From Deltaproteobacteria bacterium (lineage in GTDB: Bacteria > Desulfobacterota > Desulfobacteria > Desulfobacterales > SpSt-501): a DNA stretch of 64,000 nucleotides. The notes under the pieces are model-generated. The model searched no databases, had not been told where the DNA came from, and worked only from the letters and a program-made list of their open reading frames with translations. A program made the position numbers and the translations under genes. Location: the NCBI GenBank assembly GCA_016219005.1, contig JACRCN010000041.1, forward strand, positions 1 to 64,000. The letters run 5' to 3'. Below are positions 43,707 through 63,758 of this stretch, one piece after another (within the stretch, counting starts at the first letter, position 1; each line of letters starts with the position of its first letter).

Positions 43707-44474
43707 CTACCACCACCGGATGGACTCGGTCACGTGTTCCCTGATCTTGACGAACTCCGGATCGTCGAACTTGCGCGGCCGCGGAAGATCGACGATGATT
43801 TCTTCCTTGATCTTGGCCGGTTTGTTCGACAGCACCAGGATGCGCTGGCCGAGGTACACGGCCTCCTCGATGTTGTGGGTGACGAACAGGACGGTACTCT
43901 TCAATTCGTTCCAGATCCGGATCAGCTCGTCCTCGAGGTAGTAGCGCAGCTTGATGTCCAGCTGACCGTATGGTTCGTCCATCAGCAGCAGGTCCGGGTT
44001 CAATGCGAAATTGCGCGCAATCACAACCCGCTGCTCCATGCTGGAGGACAGCTCCTGAGGAAAATTCCTTCGGAAGGGCTTCAGCCCCACCAATTCGAGC
44101 ATCGTTTCAACCCGGCGCTCGATTTCGTCGGCGGGAAGCCTCTTGATTCTTAGCCCGAAGCGGATGTTGTCTTCCACGCTCAGCCACGGGATGCTGGAGA
44201 CTTCCTGGAAGACGAAGGCGATGTTGTGGCGCCGGGGGTCCGATGGGGTCCCGTCGACCAGGATGTCACCCCGGGTGGCCGGGATGAAGCGCGCCAGGGT
44301 GTTGAGAAAGGTGGTCTTGCCGCACCCGGTGGGACCGACGATGCACAGCATCTCGCCATCATAAATCTCGAAATTGATGTCGTCCAGGACGAGCAGCTCG
44401 TCATAGCACTTGGTGAGATCGGTCACGCCGACCTTGACCTTTTTCCCGCGGGCATACTCTTCTTTGGTGGTCAT
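43707..44474 (-). CDS. NitT/TauT-type ABC transporter ATPase with altered signature motif
   Basis: 255 residues from the ATG at 44474 (GGAGG upstream); the longer open frame upstream is not coding. Walker A GPTGCGKT at 47-54, Walker B LLMDEP around 162-168 and the switch His200 (VTHNIEEA) are normal. The ABC signature, however, reads LSSSM (142-146) instead of LSGGQ/M. In a heterodimer with the ATPase encoded next to it, this loop would face a partner lacking the switch His, giving one degenerate ATP site. Family members import taurine, sulfonates, nitrate or aromatic acids. Confidence 0.88.
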   Translation of the reverse strand: MTTKEEYARGKKVKVGVTDLTKCYDELLVLDDINFEIYDGEMLCIVGPTGCGKTTFLNTLARFIPATRGDILVDGTPSDPRRHNIAFVFQEVSSIPWLSVEDNIRFGLRIKRLPADEIERRVETMLELVGLKPFRRNFPQELSSSMEQRVVIARNFALNPDLLLMDEPYGQLDIKLRYYLEDELIRIWNELKSTVLFVTHNIEEAVYLGQRILVLSNKPAKIKEEIIVDLPRPRKFDDPEFVKIREHVTESIRWW

Positions 44475-44490
44475 TTCCGCAGCAAGCCTC

Positions 44491-45255
44491 CTAGAGCGAA
44501 AGTTCGGTGTCGTTGGATATCTTCCTGCGCATCTCCAGGAATCTGGGGTCCGTGTACTCCCGCGGTTTAGGGATGTCGATCGGGTATTGCGATTTGACGT
44601 GGCCTGGCATGCAGGACATGACGACGACGCGGTCGCCCAGGTAGATGGCCTCCTCGACGTTGTTGGTGACGAAGACCACGGTGCGCTTGTCCTTCTCCCA
44701 GATCGACAGGGTTTCCTTCTCCATGGCGTAGCGGGTCTGCGCATCGAGTGCGCCGAAAGGCTCGTCCATCAGCAGCACATCGGGGCCGTTCGCCCAGGCG
44801 CGGGCAAGCCCCACGCGCTGCTTCATGCCGCCCGAGAGTTGGTGCGGATAGGACTTCTCGAACCCCTGCAGGCCGACGAGGTCGATGTACTTCTGGGCGG
44901 TCTCGTTGCGTTTGGGCTTATCCACGCCCTTGATGTAAAGGCCGAAAGACACGTTATCCATAACCGTCTTCCAAGGGAACAGGGCATACTGCTGGAAGAC
45001 GACCCCCCGGTCAGGGCCGGGCCCCGTCACCTCCCTGCCGTCCATCAAGACTTTCCCCTCGTCGGGCATGATGATGCCGGCCATGCAGTTGAGAAGCGTC
45101 GTCTTGCCGCACTGGCCGGGCCCCAGCACCACCACGAACTCGTTTTTCTGAACCTGCAGCGAGACGTCGTCCAAAACATTGATGGTGTATTGCTCGGTGA
45201 GGAACATCTTGGAGATGTTGCGGCACTCGATTTTTATGTCAGGTCTCTGCGCCAT
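44491..45255 (-). CDS. NitT/TauT-type ABC transporter ATPase lacking the switch histidine
   Basis: 254 residues from the ATG at 45255; the start overlaps the upstream permease gene by 22 bases. Walker A GPGQCGKT (45-52), signature LSGGM (140-144) and Walker B LLMDEP (161-166) are canonical. The H-loop histidine is replaced by Asn198 (VTNNVEEA). It probably pairs with the ATPase at 43707-44474, which has the His but a changed signature. The result would be one consensus and one degenerate composite site. Operon partner of two permeases and a binding protein. Confidence 0.89.
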   Translation of the reverse strand: MAQRPDIKIECRNISKMFLTEQYTINVLDDVSLQVQKNEFVVVLGPGQCGKTTLLNCMAGIIMPDEGKVLMDGREVTGPGPDRGVVFQQYALFPWKTVMDNVSFGLYIKGVDKPKRNETAQKYIDLVGLQGFEKSYPHQLSGGMKQRVGLARAWANGPDVLLMDEPFGALDAQTRYAMEKETLSIWEKDKRTVVFVTNNVEEAIYLGDRVVVMSCMPGHVKSQYPIDIPKPREYTDPRFLEMRRKISNDTELSL

Positions 45256-46019
45256 GGGCAAACCAGCCTTTCGAACCATCTGAGAGTAACCGCCAGCGAT
45301 GCACCGATGATGCCGATGATGATCATGCCCACCATGATCATGGGCGGCTTGTACATGTCCATGCCCTGGATGATCAGGTAGCCGACCCCTTCGCGGGCGC
45401 CCACCAGTTCGGCCGCCAGCACGCACATCCACGACATGCTCAGGGCGTTCTGGACCCCCGCAAACACCGACGGCAGGCTCGCCGGGATGGCGACGTTGAA
45501 GAGTTGCTGCCGCCGCGAGGCGCCGTAGGTGCGGGCCGCGGCGATGAGTAACGGATCGGTGTAGCGCATGCCGGTGTAGGCATTGAGAACGAAGATGACG
45601 AACGCGCCGACGTAGCAAATGAAGATTTTGGGCCCTTCGCCGATGCCCAGCCACAGGATGGCGATCGGTATCCAGGCGATGGGCGGGATCGGCCGCAGGA
45701 CCTCGAAGACGGGTTTGACGACCTTGTCGAAGGTCCGGTTCCAGCCCATGTACATGCCGAGCGGCAGGCCGGTGACGGCTCCCAAGAGGTAAGCGATAAC
45801 GACCCGGCGCAGGCTGTAGTAGATGTGCACCCACACGGTGTTGCCTCCGATTTTCACCGAGAACATCCGCAGACCTTCCTTGAATACCTGATACGGGGAG
45901 GGCAGAAAGTCGCCGCCGATGATCAGGTGCAGCACCTCCCAGATGCTCAGGCAGACGGCCACCGAGAGGAGCGGAAGAAAGAGCTTGGATCCTTTCTTGA
46001 AAAATCCCGATGCAATCAT
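45234..46019 (-). CDS. NitT/TauT-type ABC transporter permease (first of two)
   Basis: 261 residues, about six membrane segments, with the ATPase-contact loop AARTYGASRRQQLFNVAIPASLPSV (EAA-type). PIPPIAWIPIAILWLGIG precedes it as usual in this class. ATG overlaps the stop of the upstream permease gene by four bases, so the two permeases are co-translated and probably form a heterodimer. Confidence 0.9.
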   Translation of the reverse strand: MIASGFFKKGSKLFLPLLSVAVCLSIWEVLHLIIGGDFLPSPYQVFKEGLRMFSVKIGGNTVWVHIYYSLRRVVIAYLLGAVTGLPLGMYMGWNRTFDKVVKPVFEVLRPIPPIAWIPIAILWLGIGEGPKIFICYVGAFVIFVLNAYTGMRYTDPLLIAAARTYGASRRQQLFNVAIPASLPSVFAGVQNALSMSWMCVLAAELVGAREGVGYLIIQGMDMYKPPMIMVGMIIIGIIGASLAVTLRWFERLVCPWRRDLT

Positions 46020-46885
46020 AGTTTGACCCTCTTCGATGAGGCGAAGCGCGCCTCAATTCGGTTCAGGCCCCAGGACATCAGGGCTCCGGTCAGGCCGATG
46101 GTCAGCATGCCGACGATGATGATATCCGGTCGGGACAGCCGCCGTCCCATCTGAATCAGGTAGCCCAGGCCCTGGGAGGCCGCCAGCAGTTCAGCGGCTA
46201 CCAGGGTAGTCCAGGAAGCGTTCAGGGAGAGCTTGAGGCCCGTGAACACCATGGGGATGGCCGAAGGCACGCCGACTTTGTAGAAGGTTTCCCATCGGGA
46301 AGCCCCATAGATTTCAGCGACACGGGTGAGCACCGGGTTGGTGAGCTTGATCCCGGTGTACGAGTTGATCACGCAGGGCACGAAGGCCGCCAGCCAGATG
46401 ATGAACGCCTTGGCCGGCAGCCCGATGCCGAGCCAGATGATGGCGAGCGGTATCCATGCGATGGGGGGGATGGGTCGGATGGCGTCGAACACGGGAGTCA
46501 CCATCAGATCCAGAGGCTTGTACCAGCCCATGAGCAGGCCGAGCGGCACGCCGATGATAACGGCGGCACTAAAGCCGGTCAGCGCCAGCAGGAGGCTCGT
46601 TTCGGTGTGCTCGAACAGAGTACCGCCGTCGGGGTTGGCCTCTGTTAGCTTCATGATGAAGGTGGATACGAGCTGACTGGGCGGCACGAGCTGGTAGGGT
46701 CCGATGATTCCCAGCCGGCAGATGATCTCCCACGCCATGAGAAATGCGATGAAACTGATGAGCGAAATGGTGTTGTCCGCCGCCGATGCCTTCAGCTGCA
46801 GCACATACGGCGTCGGCGTGCGGGGGATCAGCGCTTGCTTGCAGACGTTTTCCATGGGCGTATCGACCTTAAGAGGTGATGTCAT
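46016..46885 (-). CDS. NitT/TauT-type ABC transporter permease (second of two)
   Basis: 289 residues from the ATG at 46885; the frame continues upstream but without coding character. Six membrane segments, RPIPPIAWIPLAIIWLGIG and the EAA-type loop VAEIYGASRWETFYKVGVPS identify the family. Follows the binding-protein gene by about 60 bases. Two different permeases plus two different ATPases make this a fully heteromeric importer, less common than the usual homodimers. Confidence 0.88.
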   Translation of the reverse strand: MTSPLKVDTPMENVCKQALIPRTPTPYVLQLKASAADNTISLISFIAFLMAWEIICRLGIIGPYQLVPPSQLVSTFIMKLTEANPDGGTLFEHTETSLLLALTGFSAAVIIGVPLGLLMGWYKPLDLMVTPVFDAIRPIPPIAWIPLAIIWLGIGLPAKAFIIWLAAFVPCVINSYTGIKLTNPVLTRVAEIYGASRWETFYKVGVPSAIPMVFTGLKLSLNASWTTLVAAELLAASQGLGYLIQMGRRLSRPDIIIVGMLTIGLTGALMSWGLNRIEARFASSKRVKL

Positions 46886-46944
46886 TGCCGGGAGGGTTGA
46901 GCCGTTCTCCCGGCAATGGCGATTGAGCTTCAGCCGCCCGCGGA

Positions 46945-48021
46945 CTATTGCTTCCACTTCGCGGCAACGGACTCCATGAACTTGGGGTCGATGAAGCAAT
47001 TGTTCTTCACATAGCGGTCCATTTCTTCCTTGCTGATGCGGCCCTGGTCCACGAAGAACTGGGCAATGGCCGTCATCCAGGCCTTGGCCTTGGCGGGATC
47101 GGTCAGGAGGGTGACCTGCTCCTTCGGCAGGAATAGCGGCCGCAATTCGAACTCCTTGGCCACCAATTCCTTGGACAATTCCATTCCACAGTAGTCGTTG
47201 AAATACTTGTGCAGGCGCTCGGTGCCCCACGCGTGGTCGCCTTTCATCTTCGCGACCATGTTCATGTAAATCCCCAACCATTGCACCACCTGCTCGGGGT
47301 TCTTTTCAGCATATTCCTTGCGTACGATTATGGCGCCGGGGATCATGGCGCCGGCGCGGGCGCCGGAGGAGACCTTCTTCCAGCCCCGGGATTCGGCGAT
47401 GTAGCTGAACGGGGCCCACATCTGGAGGATGTCGCCCTGGCCGGATGCAAACGCCGCTACCGCCTGGCCCTGCTCGATCTGGATGATCTGGACCTCGTTG
47501 TCCTTGAGGCCCAGGGCCTTCAGCGTGGAGGACAGGGCGTAGTGGCCGGTGGAGACGGTGGTGCACAGGATTTTCTTGCCTTTCCAGTCCGCGGCCGTGC
47601 CGTAAAGGTTGGGGAATTTGGGGTTGGCGCCCTTGGCCTTCAAAAGCGGCGAATCCGGCCGGACCCACAGGTCGTTGGTCTCCGACTCGTCGTTGGAGAT
47701 GCCGATCATCAAGGCTCCGTAACGGATGCTGGCCATCATCATGGGCACGGTGCCGATGGCGCCGACGTCCCATTCACCGGCGGCCATGGCCTCAATCTGA
47801 GGGGGCCCGGAGGGAAACATCATGTATTTCATCTCGACGGGAAGGTTTGTTGGTTTTTGCTCCAGGACCTCCCAGGTGGGCATGCCGTGCAGGCAGGGCT
47901 GCCCGCTGACCCGAACCATGGGTTTGTTTTGAGCCACGGCGCTGGAGAGCCCCACTGCCAGGGAAATGCAGATTATCGCACCGAGAGTTGCCGCAATCGC
48001 GTTAAACCGTTTCATCGTCAT
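46945..48021 (-). CDS. NitT/TauT-type ABC substrate-binding protein
   Basis: 358 residues behind GGAGGG. Signal peptide MTMKRFNAIAATLGAIICIS, cleaved near AVA-QN. Binding-fold features include the early VRVSGQPCLHGMPTWEVLEQ segment, EAMAAGEWDVGAIGTVPMM, and FASGQGDILQMWAPFS. Family members bind taurine, alkanesulfonates, nitrate and similar anions. In this operon a sulfonated C3 acid is an attractive ligand. Located between the MoaD-like gene and the permeases. Confidence 0.88.
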   Translation of the reverse strand: MTMKRFNAIAATLGAIICISLAVGLSSAVAQNKPMVRVSGQPCLHGMPTWEVLEQKPTNLPVEMKYMMFPSGPPQIEAMAAGEWDVGAIGTVPMMMASIRYGALMIGISNDESETNDLWVRPDSPLLKAKGANPKFPNLYGTAADWKGKKILCTTVSTGHYALSSTLKALGLKDNEVQIIQIEQGQAVAAFASGQGDILQMWAPFSYIAESRGWKKVSSGARAGAMIPGAIIVRKEYAEKNPEQVVQWLGIYMNMVAKMKGDHAWGTERLHKYFNDYCGMELSKELVAKEFELRPLFLPKEQVTLLTDPAKAKAWMTAIAQFFVDQGRISKEEMDRYVKNNCFIDPKFMESVAAKWKQ

Positions 48022-48228: not shown

Positions 48229-48459
48229 TCAGCCGCCACCGATCGGCGGAATGAGCGTTATTCTGTCGCCGGGCTGCAACCTCTGCTGAAACGTGCCGCT
48301 GCGGGCGTTCACCATGACGATACCGATATCCTGCAGAGGCAGGTCCAGCTTTTCCCGCAGATCGTTTACGGTGGCGCCCTCCGGCAACTCAACCTCGGCC
48401 TCGGCAAACCGGTCGGTGCGAAGGCCGGAGTAAAGGCTCACCCGGACGCGTATCGTCAT
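48229..48459 (-). CDS. MoaD/ThiS-family small protein ending in Gly-Gly (with AOR)
   Basis: 76 residues from the ATG at 48459, whose ATGA overlaps the AOR stop. A ubiquitin-like fold is expected: MTIRVRVSLYSGLR strand pair, ELPEGATVNDLREKL helix start, and the C-terminal PGDRITLIPPIGGG with a terminal Gly-Gly. Such proteins donate sulfur in Mo/W-pterin synthesis after adenylation by a MoeB/HesA enzyme; the one at 5048 is a candidate. Coupling to an aldehyde oxidoreductase gene is typical of tungsten enzymes. Confidence 0.85.
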   Translation of the reverse strand: MTIRVRVSLYSGLRTDRFAEAEVELPEGATVNDLREKLDLPLQDIGIVMVNARSGTFQQRLQPGDRITLIPPIGGG

Positions 48460-50342
48460 TGCGGCATTTCCGGCTGCAGCCATTCGAGATTCAGTTCGAC
48501 CAGTTTGCCGAACGTCGGCCTGCCGCGCCGGTCCCAGCCGGACAACTCGTAGAAAACCTCGATCGCCCGCCGGAATTCCTGCTCATCGAGCTTCTTGCCC
48601 TTGATCGGTCCGCCCGGCATCGGCTCGTGCCACCGGCGAATCACCTTGTCGTCCTCCGGGCCGAAGCCTTCCCGCAGGTTGAAAATGCGGGACATGACCA
48701 TCGACCGTTCCACGGCCAGCATGATTTCGTAAAGGCTGGTGTCCCAGCCGGTGACGGCTCGCACCGCCTCGACCAGGTTGTGGAAGGTCATGGCGTGGAT
48801 GGCCACCGACGTGAAGTTGCAGATGCTCAGCAGGTTGTTGATGCCCCAGGCCTTCTGGCCCAGGGCAAAAAACCGGACTTTGGCCATGTCGGTTTCCAGG
48901 GGTTCGACCGGGTCCAGCAGCCCCACGGCATGCAGCTTGGCAACGCCGTCGCCCTGAAAGGCGACGTCGTGGGGCGTTTCGATGTGGTCCGCCCCGGTGG
49001 CGGACAGGGCATAGCCCAAGGCCATGCCGGTCTTGCCGCGGCCGTCGTGTAAAGGTAGATCGTTGCCCTTGATGGTGAACGCGAATTGCTCCGAGCCCCG
49101 GCCGATCCGTTCGGACGCCGTTTTCACCCCCTCGGCCAGGATGTCGCCGATTCCCCGGCGCTGGACGACTTCCTCGATCAGCCACAGCATCGCATCGGGA
49201 TCCCCGAAGTTGATTTTGCGACCGCCGGTGTCCTTGTCCGTCAGGATGCCGTTCTCGAAGCATTCCATCACAAAGGCGGTGACGTTTCCCATGGACACGG
49301 TGTCCAACCCGTAGAGGTTGCAAAGCTGGTTGCCCCGACCCACGGCCAGCAGGTTGTCGTTGCCGATCATCGAGCCGAAGGCCGCGATGGTTTCGTACTC
49401 CGGGCCGCCCCACTTTGGATTGAGCGGGTATTTTTCGTCGTCCAGGGCCACGCGGCGCTTGCATTTGACCGCACAGGTCCAGCAGGTGCCGGAGGAGTGC
49501 AGAATGGATGCGTAGGCATCGGCGTTGAGCTTGTCGGCTCCTTCGAAAACCCCTTCCCGGAAGTTGCGGGTCGGCAGGATGCCGGTGGCATTCAGCCCCT
49601 TGACCAGCCCCGGTGTGCCGAAGTTGGTCAGGCCCACGTTGGGCGGGTGGGTCTTGATGCGGGCGTTGTGCCAGCGGGCAATGTCCTTGACCTTTTCAGG
49701 CTCGGCTGATTCCATGCGTTTGGTGCCGCGCACGGCGACGGCCTTGAGGTTCTTGGATCCCAGGACCGCCCCCATGCCGGTGCGGCCGTTGAAGTGCTCG
49801 ACGTCGTTGCTGACGTTGGCAAAGCGGACCAGTCGTTCGCCGGCCGGGCCGATGGAAGCCACCCGCACCCGTTTGTCCCCAACCTCCTCCTGGATGCGCA
49901 GCAGGGCTTTGAAATTGTCCAGGCCCCAGACGTCCTTTGCATCCCGGAACTGGACGTTCCCGTCCTTGATGAAGAGATAGATCGGTTGGGCGGCGCGGCC
50001 CTGGATGACGATGGCGTCGAAACCAGCAAACTTGAGCTCCGGCCCGAAAAACCCGCCGGCTTCGGATTCGCCGAAGGCATGGGTCAGGGGCGACTTGGCG
50101 GCCACGGTGTACCGGTTCCAGCCGGATATGGGCGCCCCGGTCACCACGCTGCAGGCAAACACTAGAACATTTTCAGGGGAAAGCGGGTCGGTGCCGGGCG
50201 TGAGCATCTTGAGGAGGTAATACGAAGCGAACGCCGAACCGCCCATGTAGGTGCGGTACCACTTTTCACCGGGCTCTTCGACGTGCCATTTCTGTTGGGT
50301 CAGATCGATATGAAGTATTTTTCCATTGTAGCCGAAAGGCAT
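48456..50342 (-). CDS. aor: tungsten-type aldehyde:ferredoxin oxidoreductase
   Basis: 628 residues, normal for the AOR family. It oxidises an aldehyde to an acid with ferredoxin as acceptor. The N-terminal tungstopterin-binding domain opens with MPFGYNGKILHIDLT. The Fe4S4 ligands are Cys287, Cys290 and Cys294 (CWTCAVKC) plus Cys508 (SICNF), all present. The pterin contacts around HDGRGKTGMALGYA are seen. Translationally coupled to a MoaD-like protein and lying between a beta-hydroxyacid dehydrogenase and an ABC importer, it may oxidise the aldehyde made by the dehydrogenase, such as sulfolactaldehyde. The substrate is inferred. Confidence 0.93.
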   Translation of the reverse strand: MPFGYNGKILHIDLTQQKWHVEEPGEKWYRTYMGGSAFASYYLLKMLTPGTDPLSPENVLVFACSVVTGAPISGWNRYTVAAKSPLTHAFGESEAGGFFGPELKFAGFDAIVIQGRAAQPIYLFIKDGNVQFRDAKDVWGLDNFKALLRIQEEVGDKRVRVASIGPAGERLVRFANVSNDVEHFNGRTGMGAVLGSKNLKAVAVRGTKRMESAEPEKVKDIARWHNARIKTHPPNVGLTNFGTPGLVKGLNATGILPTRNFREGVFEGADKLNADAYASILHSSGTCWTCAVKCKRRVALDDEKYPLNPKWGGPEYETIAAFGSMIGNDNLLAVGRGNQLCNLYGLDTVSMGNVTAFVMECFENGILTDKDTGGRKINFGDPDAMLWLIEEVVQRRGIGDILAEGVKTASERIGRGSEQFAFTIKGNDLPLHDGRGKTGMALGYALSATGADHIETPHDVAFQGDGVAKLHAVGLLDPVEPLETDMAKVRFFALGQKAWGINNLLSICNFTSVAIHAMTFHNLVEAVRAVTGWDTSLYEIMLAVERSMVMSRIFNLREGFGPEDDKVIRRWHEPMPGGPIKGKKLDEQEFRRAIEVFYELSGWDRRGRPTFGKLVELNLEWLQPEMPQ

Positions 50343-50499: not shown

Positions 50500-51360
50500 C
50501 TACTTGATGACTTTGTACATCGCGTTGCAATCCTCTTTACCATACCCGGCACTGCTGCCGGCTTTCAAATAGCCCAATGCCACCTGCATCGTTTTGGCGT
50601 CGTTGCCCCAGGTCTTGGCCATTTCGCACCCGAGGCGGACATCCTTCAGCGCCAGGTCCAAACCGAAGCGGCTCTTGAAATCGCCGCCGGCGATCCACGG
50701 CCCGCGCACGTCCATCTGGAAGCTTTTCGCGCCGGTGTCGTTGAGCAGCTCCAGCAGGTATTTCGGTTCGATGCCGGCCTTCTCGCCGATGCGGATACCC
50801 TCCGTCAACACCGCCAGGTTCGTCATGCCGATGAGATTGCTGATCAGCTTCAGCGCGCAGGCGGCTTCGACTTCGCCGAGGTAGTAGACGGGCTTGCCGA
50901 TGATGGTGAGGGTGTCCAGCATGCTCTCGTAGACGGCTTTCTTGCCGCCGGCGAAGATGGGTTCTTCGGCTTTCTCGGCCTGCGCCGGGGTCTTGCCGAG
51001 AGGGCACTCCAGGAAGTGGATGCCTTTGGCTTCTGCCGCATCGGAAAGCTTGCGGGCGGTGGCGGGGTCGATGGTGCTGACGTCGATGTAGGTGGAGCCG
51101 GCCTTCATCCGGCTGAGGAGCCCCTTCGGCCCCAGCATGACCGACTCCAGGTGCTGGGGCAGCGGCAGGCTGGTGAACACCACGTCGGCGCCAGCCAGTT
51201 CTTCGATTTTTGCGGCGGCTCGGCCGGTGGTGCCGGCAGCCAGGGTGGTCTTCACAGCCTCGGGGTTGAGATCGAACACCCACACGTTCTTCTTGGCGCG
51301 AATCAGATTGCGGGCAAGCCCGCCACCCATCTGGCCGACGCCGATGAATCCGAATTGCAT
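50500..51360 (-). CDS. beta-hydroxyacid dehydrogenase, YihU-like (sulfolactaldehyde reductase type) candidate
   Basis: 286 residues from the ATG at 51360 (GGAGGGG). Rossmann motif FIGVGQMGGGLARN and catalytic Lys171 (ALKLISN) define the HIBADH/beta-hydroxyacid dehydrogenase family. In most members the substrate loop is DxPVSGG; here it is ECPLGKTPAQA (Gly122-Lys123-Thr124). As I recall it, E. coli sulfolactaldehyde reductase YihU has PVGRTSANA at the same place, where it contacts the sulfonate. The enzyme may therefore interconvert dihydroxypropanesulfonate and sulfolactaldehyde. The paralogue at 62782 keeps the ordinary SGG loop. Confidence 0.85.
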   Translation of the reverse strand: MQFGFIGVGQMGGGLARNLIRAKKNVWVFDLNPEAVKTTLAAGTTGRAAAKIEELAGADVVFTSLPLPQHLESVMLGPKGLLSRMKAGSTYIDVSTIDPATARKLSDAAEAKGIHFLECPLGKTPAQAEKAEEPIFAGGKKAVYESMLDTLTIIGKPVYYLGEVEAACALKLISNLIGMTNLAVLTEGIRIGEKAGIEPKYLLELLNDTGAKSFQMDVRGPWIAGGDFKSRFGLDLALKDVRLGCEMAKTWGNDAKTMQVALGYLKAGSSAGYGKEDCNAMYKVIK

Positions 51361-51510: not shown

Positions 51511-52683
51511 TCAGGCACTCTCGTAGAGCTTGGTCAGCACGAACTCCTCGTGGCCGAGCACTTCCTGGGCCGTGCGTCGTCCGTTGCAGGTGCGGATCAG
51601 CATCTGCAGCAGGTTGTCGCCGGACTGGTCGAGCGTCATCTCGCCCCTGAGAATCGCCGAGCAGTCGTAGTCGACGTGCTCGCTCATGGTCTTGGCCGTG
51701 ATGGGGTTGGCGGTCAGTTTGATGACCGGCTCGATCGGGTTGCCGATGATGTTGCCCTGGCCGGTGGGGAAGAAGTGGGCGACAAAGCCCGCTGCGGCCC
51801 ACAGGGTAACGGCCTCGGCCGCGGCGCTCGAAGTGTCCATGTACCACAGGCCCGGCCCGGTGGGTGCTTCGGCTTTGTCCAGCACATCGACATACTTGGA
51901 TTTTTTGCCGATTTTCTGCAGGTTGCCGAAGGCCTTCTCCTCGATGGTGGTCAGCCCGCCGCGGATGTTGCCCTTGGTCGGCTGCGAGCCTGAGAGGTCA
52001 TCGGTCTTGTGAGATTGAATCATGTCTTCATAGGTCTGCCAGGTTTTCATGAACTTCTCGCCGATTTTAGGGCTGGCGCCGCGTTCCTTGCAGACCATTT
52101 CAGCCCCGGTGATTTCGCTCGTCTCGCCGAAGCAGCAGGTCGCGCCTATCGCCACCAGCTTGTCGATCGCGTTGCCTACGGTCGGGTTGGAGGCCAGGCC
52201 GCTGGTGGTGTCGCTTTCGCCGCACTTCACGCTCACCCATATCTCCTTCAGATCGCATTCTTCGCGGCGCAACTCGCTTGCCCACTGCACATACTCTTTG
52301 GCCTTCCAGCAGGCCATCTCGACGGTCTTGAACTCGCCGAAGCGCTCGATGCTGAAGCCCACCACGGGTTTGCCGGTCTTGGCGATGCCCTTGACGATGA
52401 GGTTGGTCCACTCCGGCTCGATGCCGATCACCACCACCGCGGCCACGTTGGGGTTGGCCCCGGTGCCGATCATGGTGCGAAAGAACAGCTCCAGGTCCTT
52501 GCCGAACTGCAGCCGGCCATAGGCATGCGGGATGGCCTTGGTGCCCTTGACGTTGTAGGCCACCTTCTCGCAGGCCGCATTGCTCAGATCGTCCAGCGGC
52601 AGGATCAGCACGTGGTTGCGGATGCCGACCCGGCCGTTTTCCCGGCGGTAGGCGAACACTTTAGGGGTTTTGGTCTTGGCCAT
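51511..52683 (-). CDS. UxaA/SuyB-like hydro-lyase or sulfo-lyase, large subunit
   Basis: 390 residues from the ATG at 52683 (GAGGAGG). Belongs to the altronate dehydratase C-terminal (UxaA) family: [14 protein letters not shown], then [20 protein letters not shown] and [14 protein letters not shown]. These stretches match, from memory, the beta subunit of (2R)-sulfolactate sulfo-lyase, which splits sulfolactate to pyruvate and sulfite, better than typical altronate dehydratase. The small SAF subunit is encoded just upstream, the same split as SuyAB. Altronate or galactarate dehydration cannot be excluded. Confidence 0.85.
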
Positions 52684-52685
52684 GG

Positions 52686-52964
52686 TTACCACCTCCTCGT
52701 TTTTAGATTGTGAATGTGAACGTGTTCGCCGGTCTTGATATCGGCCACGACGCGGCCGATGTCATGGCCGTATTTGATCACGGCGTCGTCCTTCTTGAAC
52801 TTGGTAAGGGCGATCTTGTGCCCGAGGGGGATGTCCTGCAGGGCCTTGACCTGAACCGGCTTCTGGGAGTCCATGTAGAGCCCCTTGGCTTTCTCGCCCG
52901 ACTTGATGTCGACCGTGGCCACGCCGACGTTGTCGGCTTTTTCGTGAACTAGAAATTGGATCAT
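52686..52964 (-). CDS. UxaA/SuyA-like small (SAF-domain) subunit
   Basis: 92 residues from the second of two close ATGs, whose spacing from AAGGAGG is better. A SAF domain: [38 protein letters not shown] and the C-terminal [14 protein letters not shown], which carries the conserved His pair. In fused UxaA proteins this is the N-terminal domain; here it is a separate gene two bases ahead of the large subunit, as in sulfolactate sulfo-lyase SuyAB. Confidence 0.85.
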
Positions 52965-53010
52965 GCGCATTCCTCCTTGTGTGTTTGGGCGGCTTCGATG
53001 AAACCTGCCC

Positions 53011-53090: not shown

Positions 53091-54386
53091 TCAATTTTTT
53101 GCTTCCAGCTTCGAGTGTCCAGCCGACTCATAGAAATACGTCGTGTTGGCATTCGGTATTATCGCCAGCCGCGGCGTGCCGTCGAAGGCCGAAACCCACT
53201 CGGCGACGATCGTTGCCGGGTCCGCCGCCCGCAAGTGGCATTTGCGCAGCACCCCCGGTTCCAGGTCGGAAAACACGGCCACGTTGTAATTGACAAGGGT
53301 TTGTCCGAAGAGATAGGCCTTGTGCGCGCCCATGCGGAAGCCTGTCGATTTGAAATCCCGGATCACCTCCGCCGGTGTGGTGAACTGGGACACGTAGTCG
53401 AAATAAATGTCATCGCCCACCCCTTGGGGGGAGGCCGCCAGGAGCAGAATGTGGCCGCCGGGCTTGACGGCGTGGGAGGCCAGGTTCAGCCCCTTCTGGG
53501 CCTGGTACAGGCAGATGTCCTTGGGATAGCCGCCGCAGGAGGCCACCACGATGTCGAACTTTTCTGCGATGCCGACCCCGTAGACCTTGGCGCACGTCAC
53601 CGCACAGGACTCCAGCACGGCCATGGGCTTTCCGGCCGCCAGGTGCACGGCCTTCTTATCGGCATCGAGGACCAGGTTGACGGCGAAATCGATGCCGACC
53701 ATTTCCCCGGCCTCGTTCAAATCCTCGCGCACGGGGTTGCCCTTGAGACGACCGACCCGGGCGTCGGCTTCGGACATGAGGCTGTGGTTCTTTTCGATCG
53801 TATCGGCCGAGGCACAGCCGATGACCGCTCCTTTGGATCCTCCGGTGAAACCCACGAACTGGTGGGGGTCCACCTGACCGATGACGATCTTGAAGTCGGC
53901 CATGCCGAAGTCCGCATTGATCCGCACGGGTGTTCCCCGGGACGTGAGGCCGTAGTCCATCATCCGGGCGGTTCGGGCATCATGGGCGACCACCCGGCAG
54001 CCCGCAACGATGTCCGGGGGCAGGAGTCTTTGGATGGTCGCCTGATCGGCCGGGGGGTGCAGCCCCCCTCCGATAACGACCGTGACGGCGGGAGCAGGCC
54101 CTGTCTTCCGATTCGAGCGGATCAGTTCGAGCAGCGGGCCGAGCAGCGCCTTGGAAGGGGTCGGGCGCGTTTCATCCGGGATGGCGATGACCACGGTGCC
54201 GGGCTTGCGCCTTTCTATCAGTTTTGCCAAGGAATCGCTGCCGAGTGGTGAATTCAGGGCGGCCTGCAGCGAATCCTCCAGGGACTCGATGACGGGCAGG
54301 TGCAACGGCTGCAGAATCGAAACGTCGGCCTTCTCCGGGATGGGGATCCGTGCTTTTCCTTCGCCGTATTTCAACTCGAAGTCCAT
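53091..54386 (-). CDS. LarA-family nickel-pincer racemase/epimerase
   Basis: 431 residues. LarA proteins racemise 2-hydroxyacids with a covalently bound nickel pincer nucleotide. All key positions are seen at nearly the numbering of Lactobacillus LarA: DETRPTP at 71-77, His110 (GGLHPP), His175 (DPHQF), Lys185 (TGGSKGAV), which would hold the cofactor, and His201 (EKNHSLM). The LarBCE cofactor genes are not in the window. It is the first gene after the sigma-54 promoter at 54431 and precedes the SuyAB-like lyase, so racemisation of the lyase substrate (for example sulfolactate) is a reasonable hypothesis. Confidence 0.88.
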   Translation of the reverse strand: MDFELKYGEGKARIPIPEKADVSILQPLHLPVIESLEDSLQAALNSPLGSDSLAKLIERRKPGTVVIAIPDETRPTPSKALLGPLLELIRSNRKTGPAPAVTVVIGGGLHPPADQATIQRLLPPDIVAGCRVVAHDARTARMMDYGLTSRGTPVRINADFGMADFKIVIGQVDPHQFVGFTGGSKGAVIGCASADTIEKNHSLMSEADARVGRLKGNPVREDLNEAGEMVGIDFAVNLVLDADKKAVHLAAGKPMAVLESCAVTCAKVYGVGIAEKFDIVVASCGGYPKDICLYQAQKGLNLASHAVKPGGHILLLAASPQGVGDDIYFDYVSQFTTPAEVIRDFKSTGFRMGAHKAYLFGQTLVNYNVAVFSDLEPGVLRKCHLRAADPATIVAEWVSAFDGTPRLAIIPNANTTYFYESAGHSKLEAKN

Positions 54387-54626: not shown

Positions 54627-56192
54627 ATGCAATGGAACGCCGAAACACGATATAAAATGCTGCTGGAATTCAATAACGCGGTGGTCACCCGGACCAACCG
54701 CGAAGGCCTTTTCCAGGCCCTGGCCAAGGAACTGCGCAAGCACTTTGCCTACGATCGCATGGCCATCAATCTTTACGACGCCAAAGCCCAGTCCATCAGC
54801 TATTTTGCCGCGGCCGACGGCGTCCAGCCCGGAGGCGTCCTGACCCGGGCCAGCCGCCCGCTGGCCGACGGCGCCATCGCCCGGATGGTGGTGCAGTCGC
54901 GCCAGCCGATCATCATCGACGACCTGCGGCGCTACACCGACCTGACGTCCATCGGGGCGCTCGTCCAGGCCGGCCTGAACGCGACCATGGCGTTTCCGCT
55001 GCTCGTCCGCAATCGTATCCTGGGTTCGATTCACTTCTCGTTCCGAGATGCACCGGATCATGTTTCCGAGTTGACGGAGATCCTCACGGAAGCCTCCCGG
55101 CAGGTGGCCATCGCCGTCGACAACATGCTGGCCTACACCGAGCTGGAAAAGCTGAACAAGAACCTGGAGCGCGAGAAGGAGTTCCTGCTGCGGAGCAGCG
55201 ACCATTATCAGCGGCACGAGTTCCTCTACCAATCGCCGGCCATGACCAAGATCATGCGGCTGGTCGAAAGTGCAGCCGACACGGACGCGACGATCCTGAT
55301 CACCGGCGAGACCGGGACGGGCAAGGACTACCTGGCGCGCTGCATCCACAACCTGAGCTCCCGGCGAAACCATCTGTTCGTGAAAACCAACTGCCCGGCG
55401 CTGGCCTCTTCACTCTTTGAAAGCGAGCTCTTCGGCCATGCCAAGGGCGCCTTCACAGGCGCGAGCGACCGGCGCATCGGGCGCTTCGAGCTGGCGCACG
55501 GCGGGACCATCTTCCTGGACGAAATCGCCGAGCTTCCGATCCAGCTCCAGGCCAAACTGCTGCATATCCTCCAGGACAACCAGTTCGAGCGTGTCGGCGA
55601 CAGCCGTTCCATTCAGATCGACTGCCGGGTGATTGCCGCCACCAACAAGAACCTCGAAGAAGGCATCCGGGCCGGGACATTCCGCCAGGACCTCTACTAT
55701 CGGCTGAACATCGTGTCGATCCATGTGCCGCCGCTGAGAAGCAGAAAGGATGACATCCGGCTGCTGATGGAAAAGCTCACCTCCATGGAGGCCAGGGAGA
55801 TGAACCGGCCGGAGCCGCTTTACTCCGACCGGGCGCTGGACCGGTTGTGCGAGTACGCCTGGCCGGGCAATGTGCGGGAGTTGAAGAACCTGGTCAAACG
55901 GATGATCATCCTGCGTCCGGGGGATGAGATTTCTGCCGATGATGTGGATAAAATTCTCGAATCGGCGCTGCCCCAGGGCCAAGGCATGGACGAAAACCTC
56001 CTCAGCCTCCGGGACTCCGAGAGACAACACATCGTCAAGACACTGGCCCGAACACGGGGGGCCATTGGCGGGTCGAACGGCGCCGCACGCCTGCTGGGCC
56101 TGCCGCGTTCCACCCTCCAGTATCGGATTAAAAAACTCGGTATCCAGCCGAGAGACTACCTCGAAAGAGATCCCGTCCGCAGCAGCAACTGA
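54627..56192 (+). CDS. sigma-54-dependent activator with N-terminal GAF domain
   Basis: 521 residues from the ATG at 54627 (GAAGGA). A GAF domain covers about residues 10-165 (ELRKHFAYDRMAINLYD, AFPLLVRNRILGSIHFS), followed by a short coiled linker (ELEKLNKNLEREKEFL). The AAA+ domain has Walker A GETGTGKD, GAFTGA and Walker B IFLDEIAELP. The C-terminus is a Fis-type helix-turn-helix (NGAARLLGLPRSTLQYRIKK). It lies between two operons, each with a -24/-12 promoter and the same upstream palindrome, and is the obvious activator of both. The GAF ligand is unknown. Confidence 0.93.
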   Translation: MQWNAETRYKMLLEFNNAVVTRTNREGLFQALAKELRKHFAYDRMAINLYDAKAQSISYFAAADGVQPGGVLTRASRPLADGAIARMVVQSRQPIIIDDLRRYTDLTSIGALVQAGLNATMAFPLLVRNRILGSIHFSFRDAPDHVSELTEILTEASRQVAIAVDNMLAYTELEKLNKNLEREKEFLLRSSDHYQRHEFLYQSPAMTKIMRLVESAADTDATILITGETGTGKDYLARCIHNLSSRRNHLFVKTNCPALASSLFESELFGHAKGAFTGASDRRIGRFELAHGGTIFLDEIAELPIQLQAKLLHILQDNQFERVGDSRSIQIDCRVIAATNKNLEEGIRAGTFRQDLYYRLNIVSIHVPPLRSRKDDIRLLMEKLTSMEAREMNRPEPLYSDRALDRLCEYAWPGNVRELKNLVKRMIILRPGDEISADDVDKILESALPQGQGMDENLLSLRDSERQHIVKTLARTRGAIGGSNGAARLLGLPRSTLQYRIKKLGIQPRDYLERDPVRSSN

Positions 56193-56206: not shown

Positions 56207-57715
56207 TCAGGAGTCGCTCTCCTCAAGTTCCACCTGCTTGACCTTGGCCTGTCGCCGCAGCCAGATGCCGCTCGCGACCGACAGGAGGGTGAGCAGGATG
56301 AAGGCCGCCGAGATCGGGCGGGTGAAGAAGATGAGGGGTGAGCCCTTGGACATGACCAGCGACTGCATGTACGAGGTCTCCATCAGCTTGGCCAGCACCG
56401 TGGCCAGCACCATAGGTGCCACGGGAAACTCGAATTTGCGCATGAGGTAGCCGATCACGCCGAACAGCAGGCTGATCCACAGGTCGAAGAAGGAATGGCG
56501 CAGGCTGTAAGCCCCGATTAGGGTGCAGACCGCGATGATGGGTCCGAGGATGGGGAACGGGATCAAGGCCATGCGCGCCCAGAGACCCACGAGCGGGAGA
56601 TTTAGAACCAGCAGCATCACATTGCCGATGTACATGCTGGCGATGATCGTCCACAAGAGCGCGGGCTGCTCCTGCATCAGGCGTGGGCCGGGCTGCAGGC
56701 CATACATCAGAAACCCGCCGAGCAGCACGGCCAGCGCCGGGCCCGAGGGAATGCCAAAGGCGAGCAGGGGCACGAACCCGCCGCTTGCCGTGGCATTGTT
56801 CGAGCCCTCGACGGCGGCGACGGCATCAATGGCCCCATGCCCGAATTTCTCGGGGTGCTTGGAAAAGCGTTTCTCGAGGTCGTACACCATGAAGGAGGTG
56901 ACCGCGGGACTGCAGCCCGGGATTAAGCCGGCCAGAAACCCGATGACCCCGGACCGGATCGTGGCGGCCCAGGTGTCCTTGATGTCCTGCCAGGTGGGCA
57001 GCCACTCGATGCGTTTGGCCTCCAGGATGCACTTGGTTTCTTTTTCGGCATTGACCAGGATTTCACTGATGGCGAAAAGCCCCATGATGATGGGCACGAA
57101 ATCGATGCCGGCCATGAGTTCCATGGATCCGAAGGTCAGTCGCGTCACCCCGGTGAGAGGGTCCAGGCCGATCACGGCGGTCAGCAGCCCCACCAGGGCG
57201 GATAGGAGCCCTTTGCCCAGGTCGCGGCCGGAAAGGCTGACCACCAGGCTCACGCCCAGGAAGGTCAGGGCGAAATATTCCGGCGGCCCGAAAGCCAGGG
57301 CCGTCCGGGCGAGCACCGGCGCGAAAAACGTGAGCCCGATCACGCCCATGGTGCCGGCCGCAAACGAGGCGATGGCGGAAATCCCCAGGGCCGGCCCGCC
57401 GCGGCCCTGAAGGTTGAGCTGGTAGCCTTCCATGGCCGTGGGCACCGAGGAGGCTTCACCGGGGATGTTGACGAGGACGGAGGTGGTCGAGCCGCCGTAC
57501 ATGGCCCCGTAGTAGATGGCCGCCATCATGATGATGGCCGGCGCCGGATCCAGGTGAGAGGCCAGCGGCAGCAGCATGGCAATAGCCGCGGTGGGTCCCA
57601 GCCCGGGCAGCACGCCCACCAAGGTCCCGGCAATGCTTCCGATCAGGGCAAACATCAGGTTGTAGGGACTGATGGCCGCCGCAAATCCGCCCATCAGGGA
57701 AGACCACGCTTCCAT
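56207..57715 (-). CDS. tctA: TTT large membrane subunit TctA (system 3)
   Basis: 502 residues, about 11-12 membrane segments. GVLPGLGPTAAIAMLLP and YYGAMYGGSTTSVLVN are the TctA signatures; a second glycine motif FLAGLIPGCSPAVTSF lies near residue 265. It is much closer to the TctA at 22276 than to the one at 29250. Last gene of the tctC-tctB-tctA operon; converges with the regulator gene only 15 bases away. Confidence 0.93.
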   Translation of the reverse strand: MEAWSSLMGGFAAAISPYNLMFALIGSIAGTLVGVLPGLGPTAAIAMLLPLASHLDPAPAIIMMAAIYYGAMYGGSTTSVLVNIPGEASSVPTAMEGYQLNLQGRGGPALGISAIASFAAGTMGVIGLTFFAPVLARTALAFGPPEYFALTFLGVSLVVSLSGRDLGKGLLSALVGLLTAVIGLDPLTGVTRLTFGSMELMAGIDFVPIIMGLFAISEILVNAEKETKCILEAKRIEWLPTWQDIKDTWAATIRSGVIGFLAGLIPGCSPAVTSFMVYDLEKRFSKHPEKFGHGAIDAVAAVEGSNNATASGGFVPLLAFGIPSGPALAVLLGGFLMYGLQPGPRLMQEQPALLWTIIASMYIGNVMLLVLNLPLVGLWARMALIPFPILGPIIAVCTLIGAYSLRHSFFDLWISLLFGVIGYLMRKFEFPVAPMVLATVLAKLMETSYMQSLVMSKGSPLIFFTRPISAAFILLTLLSVASGIWLRRQAKVKQVELEESDS

Positions 57716-57774
57716 TCGTCACACCTTTCCGTGCAGAAAACCAGGCACGCCCCTGCCAGCAGGCCGTGCCCTGT

Positions 57775-58251
57775 TTATGAAAGAAACGCGAGCGGCCCCA
57801 GGGGCAGGGTCAGATCCAACAACCAGATGAAAACGACGTAAACAAAGGCAGCGACACCCAACGCCCAGGCCACGGCCACTATGGGGCTGTACCGGCCAAA
57901 GTACCAGATGAACCCCGCGACGAAGAAAAAGGTGCAGATGAGAAACCCCAGCGGATTGGAGAGCCCCACGTAAAGGACCAGGGCGGCCAGGGCGATGCCC
58001 CAGAACTTCCATCCCCGGCGGTCCGGCCAGCCAATCGCCTTGTTTGCCCCGGTTCTGGCAATCAGCGCGTGAACGGCGAGCCCCGCCCCGCCGATGAAAA
58101 GCAATACTCCCAGGAGGAGCGGGAAGTTGCGGGGGTGCAAATGCCCGCCGGCACCTTCATCGATAGTGGTCGAGGCCCAGGCCGCCGCAAGGCCCAGCAG
58201 GGCCAGGAAGGCCCCGCAGGCGATGTCGCCGGATCGTTGGGTCTTCAGCAC
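57775..58251 (-). CDS. tctB: TTT small membrane subunit TctB (system 3)
   Basis: 158 residues from a GTG behind GGGGGC. Four hydrophobic segments; HPRNFPLLLGVLLFIGGAGLA is the conserved stretch after the first. Fifteen bases downstream of tctC. Resembles the TctB at 23794, including the GDIA start and the GWPDRRG-like loop (KWPDGVG there). Confidence 0.87.
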   Translation of the reverse strand: MLKTQRSGDIACGAFLALLGLAAAWASTTIDEGAGGHLHPRNFPLLLGVLLFIGGAGLAVHALIARTGANKAIGWPDRRGWKFWGIALAALVLYVGLSNPLGFLICTFFFVAGFIWYFGRYSPIVAVAWALGVAAFVYVVFIWLLDLTLPLGPLAFLS

Positions 58252-58266
58252 GGTACAGCCCCCGCT

Positions 58267-59226
58267 CTATTTCTTGATGTCCTTGACGATGTCCTTGTAG
58301 ATCCCCGTCATCTTCTCGATGTAGGCCCTGCTCGCCTGGCTGCCGAGCGCCAAGGGGACGAAGCCCTCTTTTTTCATCTGCTCCTGAATGGCGGGGTCCT
58401 TGGCGATCTGCAGGAAAGCCGCCTCGAGCTTTTTCACGATATAATCGGGTGTTTTGGGGGGCAGACCGATGCCGCGGTCAATGGATTCGACGATGTCGAT
58501 GCCCGACTCCTTGAAGGTGGGGGTTTCCGGAAACCCGAAAAACCTGTTTTCATCGGCCACGGCCAGCACTCGGATGTCGCCCGAGTACTTCACCAGGTCG
58601 TCGGAATTGCCGAAGACGGCGTTGACATGCCCGCCCAGGAAGGCCGTAATCTGGGGCGCGGCGCCCGTGAAGGGCACGTAGTTGAACTTGGTACCGGTCA
58701 TCTTCTGAAACCGCAGCGTGGCCACGTGATGCCCGGAGAACGTGCCGGAGCCGCCGATGCTGATGTCGCTTGGCTTGACCTTGGCCGCCGCGATAAATTC
58801 CTGGATGGTCTTGTAGGGGCTGGTTTTCAGGACGGCGAGGGCGAGCGGCGTGCGCTGGAACAGGGCCACGGGAATGATCTGATCGGTAGTGTAACCGGTT
58901 TGCTGCTGCATGGGCTGCAGAATGATGTGGGGGATGTTGATCCCGGCCATCAGGTAACCGTCCGGCTGGGAACGGACCAACTCACTCCAGCCCAGGGCGC
59001 CGCCGCCGCCGACTTTGTAGTCGACGATGACCTTCTGCCCGAGGCTTTTTTCCAGGAAAGGCTGTTGCCTGCGGGCTTCGCGGTCAGACTGCCCGCCGGG
59101 GTCGAAGGTGACCAGGTAGGTGACGGACTTGGTCGGATAGGGCTTTTCCTGCGCAAGCCCATACCCGGTGAGCAGAGCCAGGCTGACACAAACAATGATG
59201 AACAACGACCATTTTGAGCGGCACAT
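58267..59226 (-). CDS. tctC: TTT substrate-binding protein TctC (system 3)
   Basis: 319 residues behind GGGAGGGG. Signal peptide MCRSKWSLFIIVCVSLALLT, cleaved near GLA-QE. Bug-family features: FDPGGQSDREARRQQ in the binding loop, YKVGGGGALGW, GGSGTFSGHH and FLGGHVNAVFGNSDD. First gene of the operon under the -24/-12 promoter at 59310. TTT importers serve sulfolactate uptake in some marine bacteria, which fits the neighbouring SuyAB-like lyase, but the ligand is not proven. Confidence 0.91.
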   Translation of the reverse strand: MCRSKWSLFIIVCVSLALLTGYGLAQEKPYPTKSVTYLVTFDPGGQSDREARRQQPFLEKSLGQKVIVDYKVGGGGALGWSELVRSQPDGYLMAGINIPHIILQPMQQQTGYTTDQIIPVALFQRTPLALAVLKTSPYKTIQEFIAAAKVKPSDISIGGSGTFSGHHVATLRFQKMTGTKFNYVPFTGAAPQITAFLGGHVNAVFGNSDDLVKYSGDIRVLAVADENRFFGFPETPTFKESGIDIVESIDRGIGLPPKTPDYIVKKLEAAFLQIAKDPAIQEQMKKEGFVPLALGSQASRAYIEKMTGIYKDIVKDIKK

Positions 59227-59456: not shown

Positions 59457-59690
59457 TCAGCCGCCGCCGACGGGAGGGAATATCCCCACCCGTTCGCCGC
59501 CCTGCAGCGTGGAGGAAAGATCGGCCTGGGCCCCGTCGATGAAAATCAGCTTGGCTTTTTCCTCCGGGACATTGAGCTTTTCAAGAAGGGCCCGCATGGT
59601 CGTGCCGGGTGCGATGGGATACTCCTCCCCCTCAGGCGGCGTGAACATCTGCAGGGAGGCGTAAAGCTTGAGGTGGATGTGAGAAATCAT
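59457..59690 (-). CDS. MoaD/ThiS-family small protein ending in Gly-Gly (second)
   Basis: 77 residues from the ATG at 59690. Strand pair MISHIHLKLYASLQMF, helix region APGTTMRALLEKLNVPEE, and the C-terminus GERVGIFPPVGGG with the Gly-Gly tail. It is clearly related to the MoaD-like protein beside AOR (IPPIGGG there). It lies 45 bases upstream of the activator palindrome of tctCBA, on the same strand, as a separate small unit. Probably a sulfur carrier for a Mo/W cofactor; a second AOR is not in the window. Confidence 0.78.
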   Translation of the reverse strand: MISHIHLKLYASLQMFTPPEGEEYPIAPGTTMRALLEKLNVPEEKAKLIFIDGAQADLSSTLQGGERVGIFPPVGGG

Positions 59691-59944
59691 CTTTTTTCCA
59701 GCCGCCTTGCCGGGGCGTTGGTAGATGGGGTGCTGCTTTCCCGAAGCCGGGCAAGGAGCATCGTATAGAGGTAAGGGCACAAGCTTGCTTTTATTTTTAA
59801 AGAAAGGTTAGAAGCGTTGCGGAAAAAAGTCAAGGGCCGGTAATCGATGTTGCGCCACAGGGGCAAAGCACACTTCTCGACAGAAAAGAGGATGCAGACA
59901 CGAAACCACTGCAGAGAGGACCAGCGGCGGAAATCCGGTTAGAC

Positions 59945-60768: not shown

Positions 60769-60783
60769 GGGTCTTCCTTCTTT

Positions 60784-61572: not shown

Positions 61573-61599
61573 GTCCGCATTCTCCATTCCTTAACCGTG

Positions 61600-62670: not shown

Positions 62671-62781
62671 CTTCGTCCTTCCGCCTTTGATGGCATCCTA
62701 AAAAGTCCAATTCCGGCGTTTCACTTCATCCGTCGTTGAACGGCGCTGCTTGAGCAATAAGGTGCCGTGCCGGCTGAGGCA

Positions 62782-63678: not shown

Positions 63679-63758
63679 CGCATCGTCCCTCCAGTTATCA
63701 TTCATGTCGATAGCGTCGCTGCTGCAACCGTATGGACGCTCGACCCGTTCTATCATGG

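Follow-up and report, generated by a model that had tools for sequence, protein, structure and literature searches.

The minus-strand gene considered here probably encodes a DhpA-type, NAD-dependent 2,3-dihydroxypropane-1-sulfonate (DHPS) dehydrogenase, a reading to which we assign a probability of about 0.76 on sequence and gene context, with 3-sulfolactaldehyde (SLA) and DHPS as the most likely substrate pair. The gene lies in a stretch of 64,000 nucleotides from a Deltaproteobacteria bacterium (GenBank assembly GCA_016219005.1, contig JACRCN010000041.1), referred to here as the window, with aldehyde:ferredoxin oxidoreductase (AFOR) and SsuA-type importer genes downstream and the genes for SuyB, SuyA and LarA upstream (Table 1). 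Enzymes of the DhpA kind are already known and ours is probably a further member, but the neighbouring nickel-pincer enzyme leads to a second proposal: that suyAB-linked LarAH5 proteins, which are filed as malate racemases, are one-enzyme nickel-pincer sulfolactate racemases. We judge this to have about an even chance of being correct, and found no paper in the open-access literature searched that describes a sulfolactate racemase or links suyAB with larA.

Table 1. Features in and around the predicted DHPS operon, with positions in the window.
Feature	Position	Strand	Basis or remark
Probable DhpA-type DHPS dehydrogenase, beta-hydroxyacid dehydrogenase family	50500..51360	(-)	PF03446 + PF14833; model pLDDT 95.8; 9k2j_A Z 41.6, 66% identity
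Loop PLGKTPAQA, residues 120-128	50977..51003	(-)	Lys123 codon 50992-50994
Lys171 codon	50848..50850	(-)	K171 unchanged in 16-row alignment
AFOR, candidate SLA oxidase	48456..50342	(-)	PF02730 + PF01314
Predicted SuyB, (R)-sulfolactate sulfo-lyase large subunit	51511..52692	(-)	PF04295 + PF20629
Predicted SuyA, sulfo-lyase small subunit	52686..52970	(-)	SAF domain
LarAH5 nickel-pincer racemase, candidate sulfolactate racemase	53091..54386	(-)	NF052595 538.4 bits, cut-off 462
Sigma-54-dependent activator, divergent from the operon	54627..56192	(+)	Homologue adjoins suyAB in several relatives
SsuA-family substrate-binding protein, candidate DHPS importer	46945..48021	(-)	TIGR01728 103.5 bits, below cut-off 163.5
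Other ABC importer parts (permeases, ATPases)	43707..47281	(-)	Overlapping ORFs read by eye; starts unsettled
TctA, TctB, TctC tripartite importer, substrate possibly sulfolactate or malate	56207..59226	(-)	PF03401 (TctC); TctA, TctB by eye

The ORF encodes 286 amino acids between an ATG at 51360 and a stop at 50500, with AAGGAGG shortly 5' of the ATG. Its translation bears out what the earlier note on this DNA had read from the letters, as the loop has G122, K123 and T124 and Lys171, which we take from family knowledge to be the catalytic residue, carries the same number as K171 of the Escherichia coli sulfolactaldehyde reductase YihU. The YihU motif quoted in that note was exact (PVGRTSANA with G122, R123, T124 and K171 in the protein from E. 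coli MG1655, NC_000913.3), and the window's other family member, at 62782, keeps PVSGG as claimed. The beta-hydroxyacid dehydrogenase fold with a catalytic Lys is found by domain content, the predicted model, the fold search and K171 alike.

The further claim that the loop change is specific to the enzyme in the lyase operon fits the homologues found in this genome, where four of the five others (the 62782 gene included) have PVSGG and a shortened loop is seen in L002, but it does not hold more widely. The comparison comprised 21 DhpA-type rows (14 plus 7 more), about 20 of them independent because L013 and L022, with identical matches, are apparently one genome; every row has L-G-K at positions 121–123, and this conservation argues that the PLGKT loop is no chance feature. 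The same three residues are present in 9k2j, the nearest solved structure. Judged from these alignments, the loop characterises a family that spans several phyla and reaches beyond this operon, as homologues also occur without suyAB nearby, for example in Sporomusa. The enzyme also points to enzymes of the DhpA type among Desulfobacterales, Syntrophales and further relatives, with LGK at 121–123 as a motif that can be used for them.

The central suggestion of the earlier note, that this is a YihU-like sulfonate enzyme, survives in part. In its favour are the sulfolactate-lyase operon and a basic residue at the position of R123, and the likeness to YihU extends to the family fold, K171 and a loop of equal length. 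YihU in the narrow sense is not supported, as the identity is 27%, the score against the NCBIfam model for YihU (sulfolactaldehyde reductase, NF012005) is 136.6 bits with a cut-off of 348, and K123, S174 and G178 stand where YihU has R123, N174 and S178, which we take to form its sulfonate pocket. Fold rank also counts against a close relationship. The structure predicted from a 15-row alignment matched 9k2j_A best (rmsd 1.3 over 286 residues; Table 1), an entry titled '3-hydroxyisobutyrate dehydrogenase' for which we found no paper naming it in the open-access literature searched, followed by gamma-hydroxybutyrate and related dehydrogenases at Z of about 36–38, with YihU (6sm7) below the gamma-hydroxybutyrate dehydrogenases at Z 27.3 and rmsd 5.6 over 224 residues; hinge or domain differences may be the cause of this low rank.

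Two other readings of the enzyme have to be weighed against a DHPS dehydrogenase. It might be an ordinary dehydrogenase of an unsulfonated acid (3-hydroxyisobutyrate, tartronate semialdehyde or 4-hydroxybutyrate) with a loop that suits another small substrate, and the title of the nearest structure, the fold rank of the gamma-hydroxybutyrate dehydrogenases and scores slightly above that of the YihU model for tartronate semialdehyde reductase (155.8 bits), 3-hydroxyisobutyrate dehydrogenase (153.1 bits) and L-threonate dehydrogenase (142.0 bits) would all agree with this. We regard it as very unlikely nonetheless, as these scores are well short of the respective cut-offs (397, 291.6 and 350), the PVSGG motif kept in four of the five paralogues is missing, and the homologues co-occur with suyB above background (see below). 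Membership of the 3-hydroxyisobutyrate dehydrogenase or tartronate semialdehyde reductase families was rejected on PLGKT in place of PVSGG together with the scores, and the NCBIfam scan of the enzyme reached no equivalog cut-off at all. The enzyme might alternatively run as YihU does, as an SLA reductase that gets rid of the SLA left by sulfoglycolysis by turning it into DHPS; in principle the reaction can go either way, and the homologue in Sporomusa acidovorans adjoins phosphofructokinase, class II aldolase and TauE-type exporter genes. This too seems unlikely, given the low score against the YihU model, and since importers and a C–S lyase flank the gene and no such sugar kinase or aldolase was seen in the window operon, it is the oxidative direction that fits.

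A scan of a genome collection found DhpA homologues in 13 named relatives, among Syntrophales, Desulfobacterales, Desulfosporosinus, Sporomusa, Opitutales, Desulfovibrio and one Deltaproteobacteria MAG, with AFOR on the same stretch at ten of these loci, suyAB at six, and neither nearby at three (L017, L018 and L019). The S. acidovorans homologue is 61% identical and has no suyAB nearby, suyB being on another contig, and its locus (L017, 5804–9856), where genes for class II aldolase, phosphofructokinase, the DhpA homologue and the TauE exporter follow one another, resembles a cluster for sulfoglycolysis and export of DHPS. A threshold of E<=1e-40 left just two homologues among 72,556 plasmid records, each from Rhodococcus and within about 4 kb of suyB; in Rhodococcus koreensis suyAB is grouped with genes for an aldehyde dehydrogenase, a homologue of 45% identity and two further enzymes, a hydroxyacid dehydrogenase and one of the Ldh family, which served as the SlcC- and ComC-like reference queries. 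In a sample of 297 genomes from the phylum of the window, suyB was found in four of the seven genomes with a DhpA homologue compared with 13 of 297 overall (Fisher p 7e-5), though three of those four represent one genus in which homologue and suyB are not adjacent. The homologues of these three are 48–50% identical, with no suyAB nearby, no adjacent AFOR and suyB elsewhere in each genome; in one there is a 28% identical AFOR-like ORF about 8 kb away.

The AFOR, the nearby SsuA-type importer (with a score below the model cut-off) and suyAB together provide the context known for DhpA. The suyA and suyB genes overlap by 7 bases if a GTG is the suyB start. Of 315 plasmid records that matched SuyB, 13 have proteins 60–69% identical to it; the rest are below 60%, and the next 17 rows listed are at 38–39%. 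These 13 records are annotated as UxaA family, as dehydratase or not at all, and we take them as SuyB on account of a sulfate-exporter neighbour: the best match (69%) is to a Paracoccus protein from a locus with a GntR regulator, two UxaA-family genes and a putative sulfate exporter, which we take to be the arrangement suyR-suyA-suyB-suyZ. Domains and plasmid matches thus place SuyAB as a split enzyme of the galactarate-dehydratase family, in the SuyB clade, and its predicted reaction, (R)-sulfolactate to pyruvate and sulfite, is well supported by homology. No aldehyde dehydrogenase was seen in the window operon, nor was a close SlaB found in this genome: when one suyAB-linked aldehyde dehydrogenase was compared with it, the top match had 33% identity, which makes AFOR the candidate SLA oxidase. 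Homologues of the Tct proteins adjoin suyAB or larA at other loci, and at L011 and L014 the equivalent clusters include TRAP importer genes.

We also note several other features of this genome. It has a second suyAB copy (contig C88, L090 8326–9798) with a SuyB 83% identical to the first, TctC/TctA-like genes and a sigma-54 activator, in a stretch with neither LarA nor SlcC/ComC. The window itself contains a second cluster at 60100–63807 with a GntR-type regulator, an HpcH/HpaI aldolase, the PVSGG-type beta-hydroxyacid dehydrogenase and an Ldh-family dehydrogenase which scores 252 bits against a sulfolactate dehydrogenase cut-off of 500, and a small ThiS-like protein is encoded near the Tct genes at 59457–59780.

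The LarA protein of the window exceeds the cut-off of NF052595 ('malate racemase, LarAH5 family'; Table 1) in an NCBIfam scan that covered it and 20 others among the 66 LarA proteins of our tree. It keeps all eight catalytic and cofactor residues examined (D72, R75, H108, H174, K184, H200, Q295 and K298 in LarA1 numbering); its second catalytic His is followed by Gln, and the GHK motif is present. For the cofactor, LarB is encoded in this genome with a score above cut-off (303.9 bits), and there was no match to LarC1 (TIGR00299) in the assembly of 106 contigs, which is 98.5% complete; this missing LarC1 match speaks against the racemase proposal.

The association of larA with suyB was clearest in a sample of 82 genomes from the class of the Desulfosporosinus genome G304, which we take to be Desulfitobacteriia in GTDB. 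Using thresholds of E<=1e-100 for suyB and E<=1e-60 for larA, we found suyB in 12 genomes, larA in 13 and both in 11 (Fisher p 6.5e-11), and in ten of these 11 the two genes are within 2 kb of each other. The gap is 80–283 bases in nine and 1.9 kb in one, where an aldehyde dehydrogenase gene intervenes, and in G304 itself each of the pair is at the end of a different contig; two genomes have larA but no suyB (G374 and G380), and their larA genes are LarAH6, the Mar2 type, by score. Six of the 11 clusters also contain an Ldh-family dehydrogenase. In the 297-genome sample from the window phylum, suyB was found in 13 genomes, larA in eight and both in four, in all four cases on one contig and within 11 kb (p 1.4e-4, or 1.6e-3 without this genome; two of the four belong to one genus), and in the named Desulfobacterales loci L009–L012 larA is directly before suyA. 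At the 15 suyB places of this sample we found LarAH5 in four, another LarA with catalytic residues in one (L095), SlcC- plus ComC-like genes instead in two, and neither in eight (one a stretch of 3.7 kb). No LarAH5 was found together with an SlcC–ComC pair in the stretches examined, and one LarAH5 away from suyB (L088) occurs with an SlcC-like gene. Within about 10 kb at another locus (L120 916–11106, genome G310) are phosphofructokinase, a class II aldolase on the opposite strand, an Ldh-family dehydrogenase, LarAH5 and suyAB, possibly a sugar-to-sulfite route of the kind expected from a sulfoglycolysis cluster.

Not all LarAH5 genes are placed in this way. In a sample of 398 genomes from the Sporomusa phylum, 19 had a LarAH5 above the cut-off and only three of these (G312, G313 and G433) had suyB in the same stretch, with no suyB in the stretch examined for the other 16 (two on contigs of less than 7 kb). 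A TctA homologue is found in the stretch of eight of the 16, and at one (L185) the neighbours of LarAH5 look, on inspection by eye, like genes for succinate dehydrogenase and fumarase. Four further unlinked cases are L088, L101, L102 (which ends at a contig end) and L103, and their genomes (G307, G167, G047 and G093) had no suyB match at E<=1e-70. Conversely, at two loci with a DhpA homologue, AFOR and suyAB (L014/L087 and L015/L146), suyAB is not accompanied by any LarA that has the catalytic residues. On this distribution the LarAH5 family as a whole is no sulfolactate family, and we limit the racemase proposal to the suyAB-linked members. In Desulfosarcina alkanivorans (L087 9620–10882) a LarA-like protein is encoded directly before suyA, but with K and C at positions 108 and 174 it has lost the catalytic histidines, and for this reason we rejected it as a racemase and left it out of the racemase count.

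In the LarA tree, which retains the L087 row, counted in the linked group of 22, and omits the L014 piece (190 aa) and L134 (the same place as L101), linkage to suyB needs 5 changes compared with 18.7 in shuffles, at least 4 of them forced by starred branches. We make no claim about the number of origins since the deep forks of this tree are open, though the link in the window and in L009–L012 could reflect a single inheritance. A search for residues specific to the two suyB-linked LarAH5 clades gave seven columns against 15 unlinked rows, or five with one more unlinked row, and this provides no evidence because control pairings yielded 6 and 31 columns; Gly at LarA1 position 105 is a lead only, as the linked L191 has Thr and the unlinked L101 and L102 also have Gly. 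It should also be noted that in L180, L182, L183, L184 and L188, TctA and TctC are 66–72% identical to those of the window and lie beside a LarAH5 only 35–37% identical, with no suyB in the stretch, the racemase being less well conserved than the transporter. At L178 (9373–9654) a 55-residue stretch similar to SuyB lies on the other strand, opposite the start of the LarAH5 gene, and may be chance, a remnant or an artefact.

The main competing view is that LarAH5 is a genuine malate racemase, with the suyAB neighbourhood being incidental or serving malate downstream of pyruvate, and we consider this quite possible, if less probable than a role with sulfolactate. It has in its favour the NCBIfam name, the 16 of 19 LarAH5 genomes with no suyB in the stretch, the succinate dehydrogenase and fumarase-like neighbours of one of these, and the four genomes above in which LarAH5 occurs with no suyB match. 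Set against it are the tight linkage in ten of 11 G304-class genomes and the kinetics of Mar1, the LarAH5 enzyme of Desulfitobacterium hafniense. Table 2 of the Mar1 paper, as far as its accessible text goes, gives kcat 140, a Km of 55 mM for L-malate and kcat/Km of 0.39 per mM per s (PMC7583248), values which are mutually inconsistent as kcat and Km would give 2.5; the kcat/Km of Mar2, at 185 per mM per s, is 70 to 470 times higher. The authors themselves considered that malate was perhaps not the native substrate and suggested tartrate or 2-hydroxysuccinamate (PMC7583248), and the word 'sulfolactate' is absent from the main text of both Mar1 papers (PMC7583248, PMC11770544). Sulfolactate as the substrate of the suyAB-linked enzymes would explain the poor affinity of Mar1 for malate.

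We propose the following pathway for the window operon. DHPS would be imported by the SsuA-type importer and oxidised to SLA by the NAD-dependent dehydrogenase in the first step, with Lys171 as the presumed catalytic residue and Lys123 in the substrate loop probably directed toward the sulfonate. SLA might then be converted to sulfolactate by the neighbouring AFOR, a step we put forward tentatively and at slightly less than even odds, and (S)-sulfolactate would be turned into the (R)-form by the LarAH5 nickel enzyme, for which the odds seem even or marginally better. SuyAB would cleave (R)-sulfolactate to pyruvate and sulfite, as homology supports well, and the sulfite is a putative electron acceptor.

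The proposal of such an inversion draws on the stereochemistry reported, in the parts of the literature accessible to us, for the lyase and its substrates. SuyAB acts on (R)-sulfolactate, to which SlcC and ComC convert the (S)-form (PMC10507020, PMC9594981, PMC12421959), or alternatively DHPS is inverted by HpsO and HpsP (PMC9594981, PMC11382572); enzymes of these routes are also named elsewhere (PMC11131964, PMC12330013), and sulfosugars give rise to S-SLA (PMC12421959). Within the open-access text searched, inversion by anything other than the dehydrogenase pairs SlcC/ComC or HpsO/HpsP is not described. If the proposal is true, (S)-sulfolactate from sulfoquinovose would be converted to the (R)-form in one redox-neutral step which replaces SlcC/ComC in anaerobes, and this would close a stereochemical gap in how DHPS and sulfolactate are degraded anaerobically. 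It would be the first nickel-pincer enzyme known to act on a sulfonate, within the open-access literature searched, where the one paper that came up for the nickel-pincer nucleotide and sulfonates concerns prebiotic nickel chemistry, and the database name 'malate racemase' would need correcting for suyAB-linked LarAH5. Sulfoquinovose is abundant, as are its C3 products, and anaerobic degradation of these compounds supplies sulfite to sulfite reducers and so leads to H2S, and it is with the type of enzyme described here that the breakdown of a plant-derived sulfur compound would begin in anaerobic bacteria.

The closest known counterpart of the dehydrogenase is DhpA of Desulfovibrio sp. DF1, and on the accessible text of the DF1 paper this protein belongs to COG2084, shares 27% identity with YihU and uses NAD+ to oxidise DHPS to SLA (Km 36 uM at pH 9.5 and 1.5 mM at pH 7.5), with AFOR and SlaB co-encoded, an SsuA-type importer on the same contig and SuyAB at distant gene numbers (PMC6278857). 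The two enzymes are likened by family (COG2084 for both), context and their identity to YihU (27% in both cases), not by direct alignment, with AFOR and an SsuA-type importer nearby and suyAB in the genome of each. They differ in that DF1 has an NAD-dependent SlaB co-encoded with dhpA and suyAB at distant gene numbers, whereas in the window no close SlaB was found, suyAB adjoins the gene and a LarAH5 racemase is added. Recombinant AFOR from DF1 had no activity with SLA in vitro, which weighs against AFOR as the SLA oxidase, and the words 'enantiomer' and 'chiral' are absent from the DF1 paper (PMC6278857). YihU itself belongs to a sulfoglycolytic setting, while that of our gene is oxidative.

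For the racemase, Mar1 of D. hafniense is the nearest relative, with the same NCBIfam family and the features described for group 5, Gln after the catalytic His and GHK, though its reported activity is on malate with promiscuous epimerisation of tartrate (PMC7583248, PMC11770544, as accessible to us). The Mar2/LarAH6 malate racemase (6d6z) shares the LarA family, the catalytic residues and the GHK motif but has Tyr-Lys in the substrate loop where LarAH5 has Gln-Phe. Racemisation of sulfolactate by the two dehydrogenases SlcC and ComC through sulfopyruvate was reportedly described by Denger and Cook in 2010. That system and the one proposed here would share the step from (S)- to (R)-sulfolactate ahead of SuyAB, with two dehydrogenases in the one case and a single nickel-pincer enzyme in the other.
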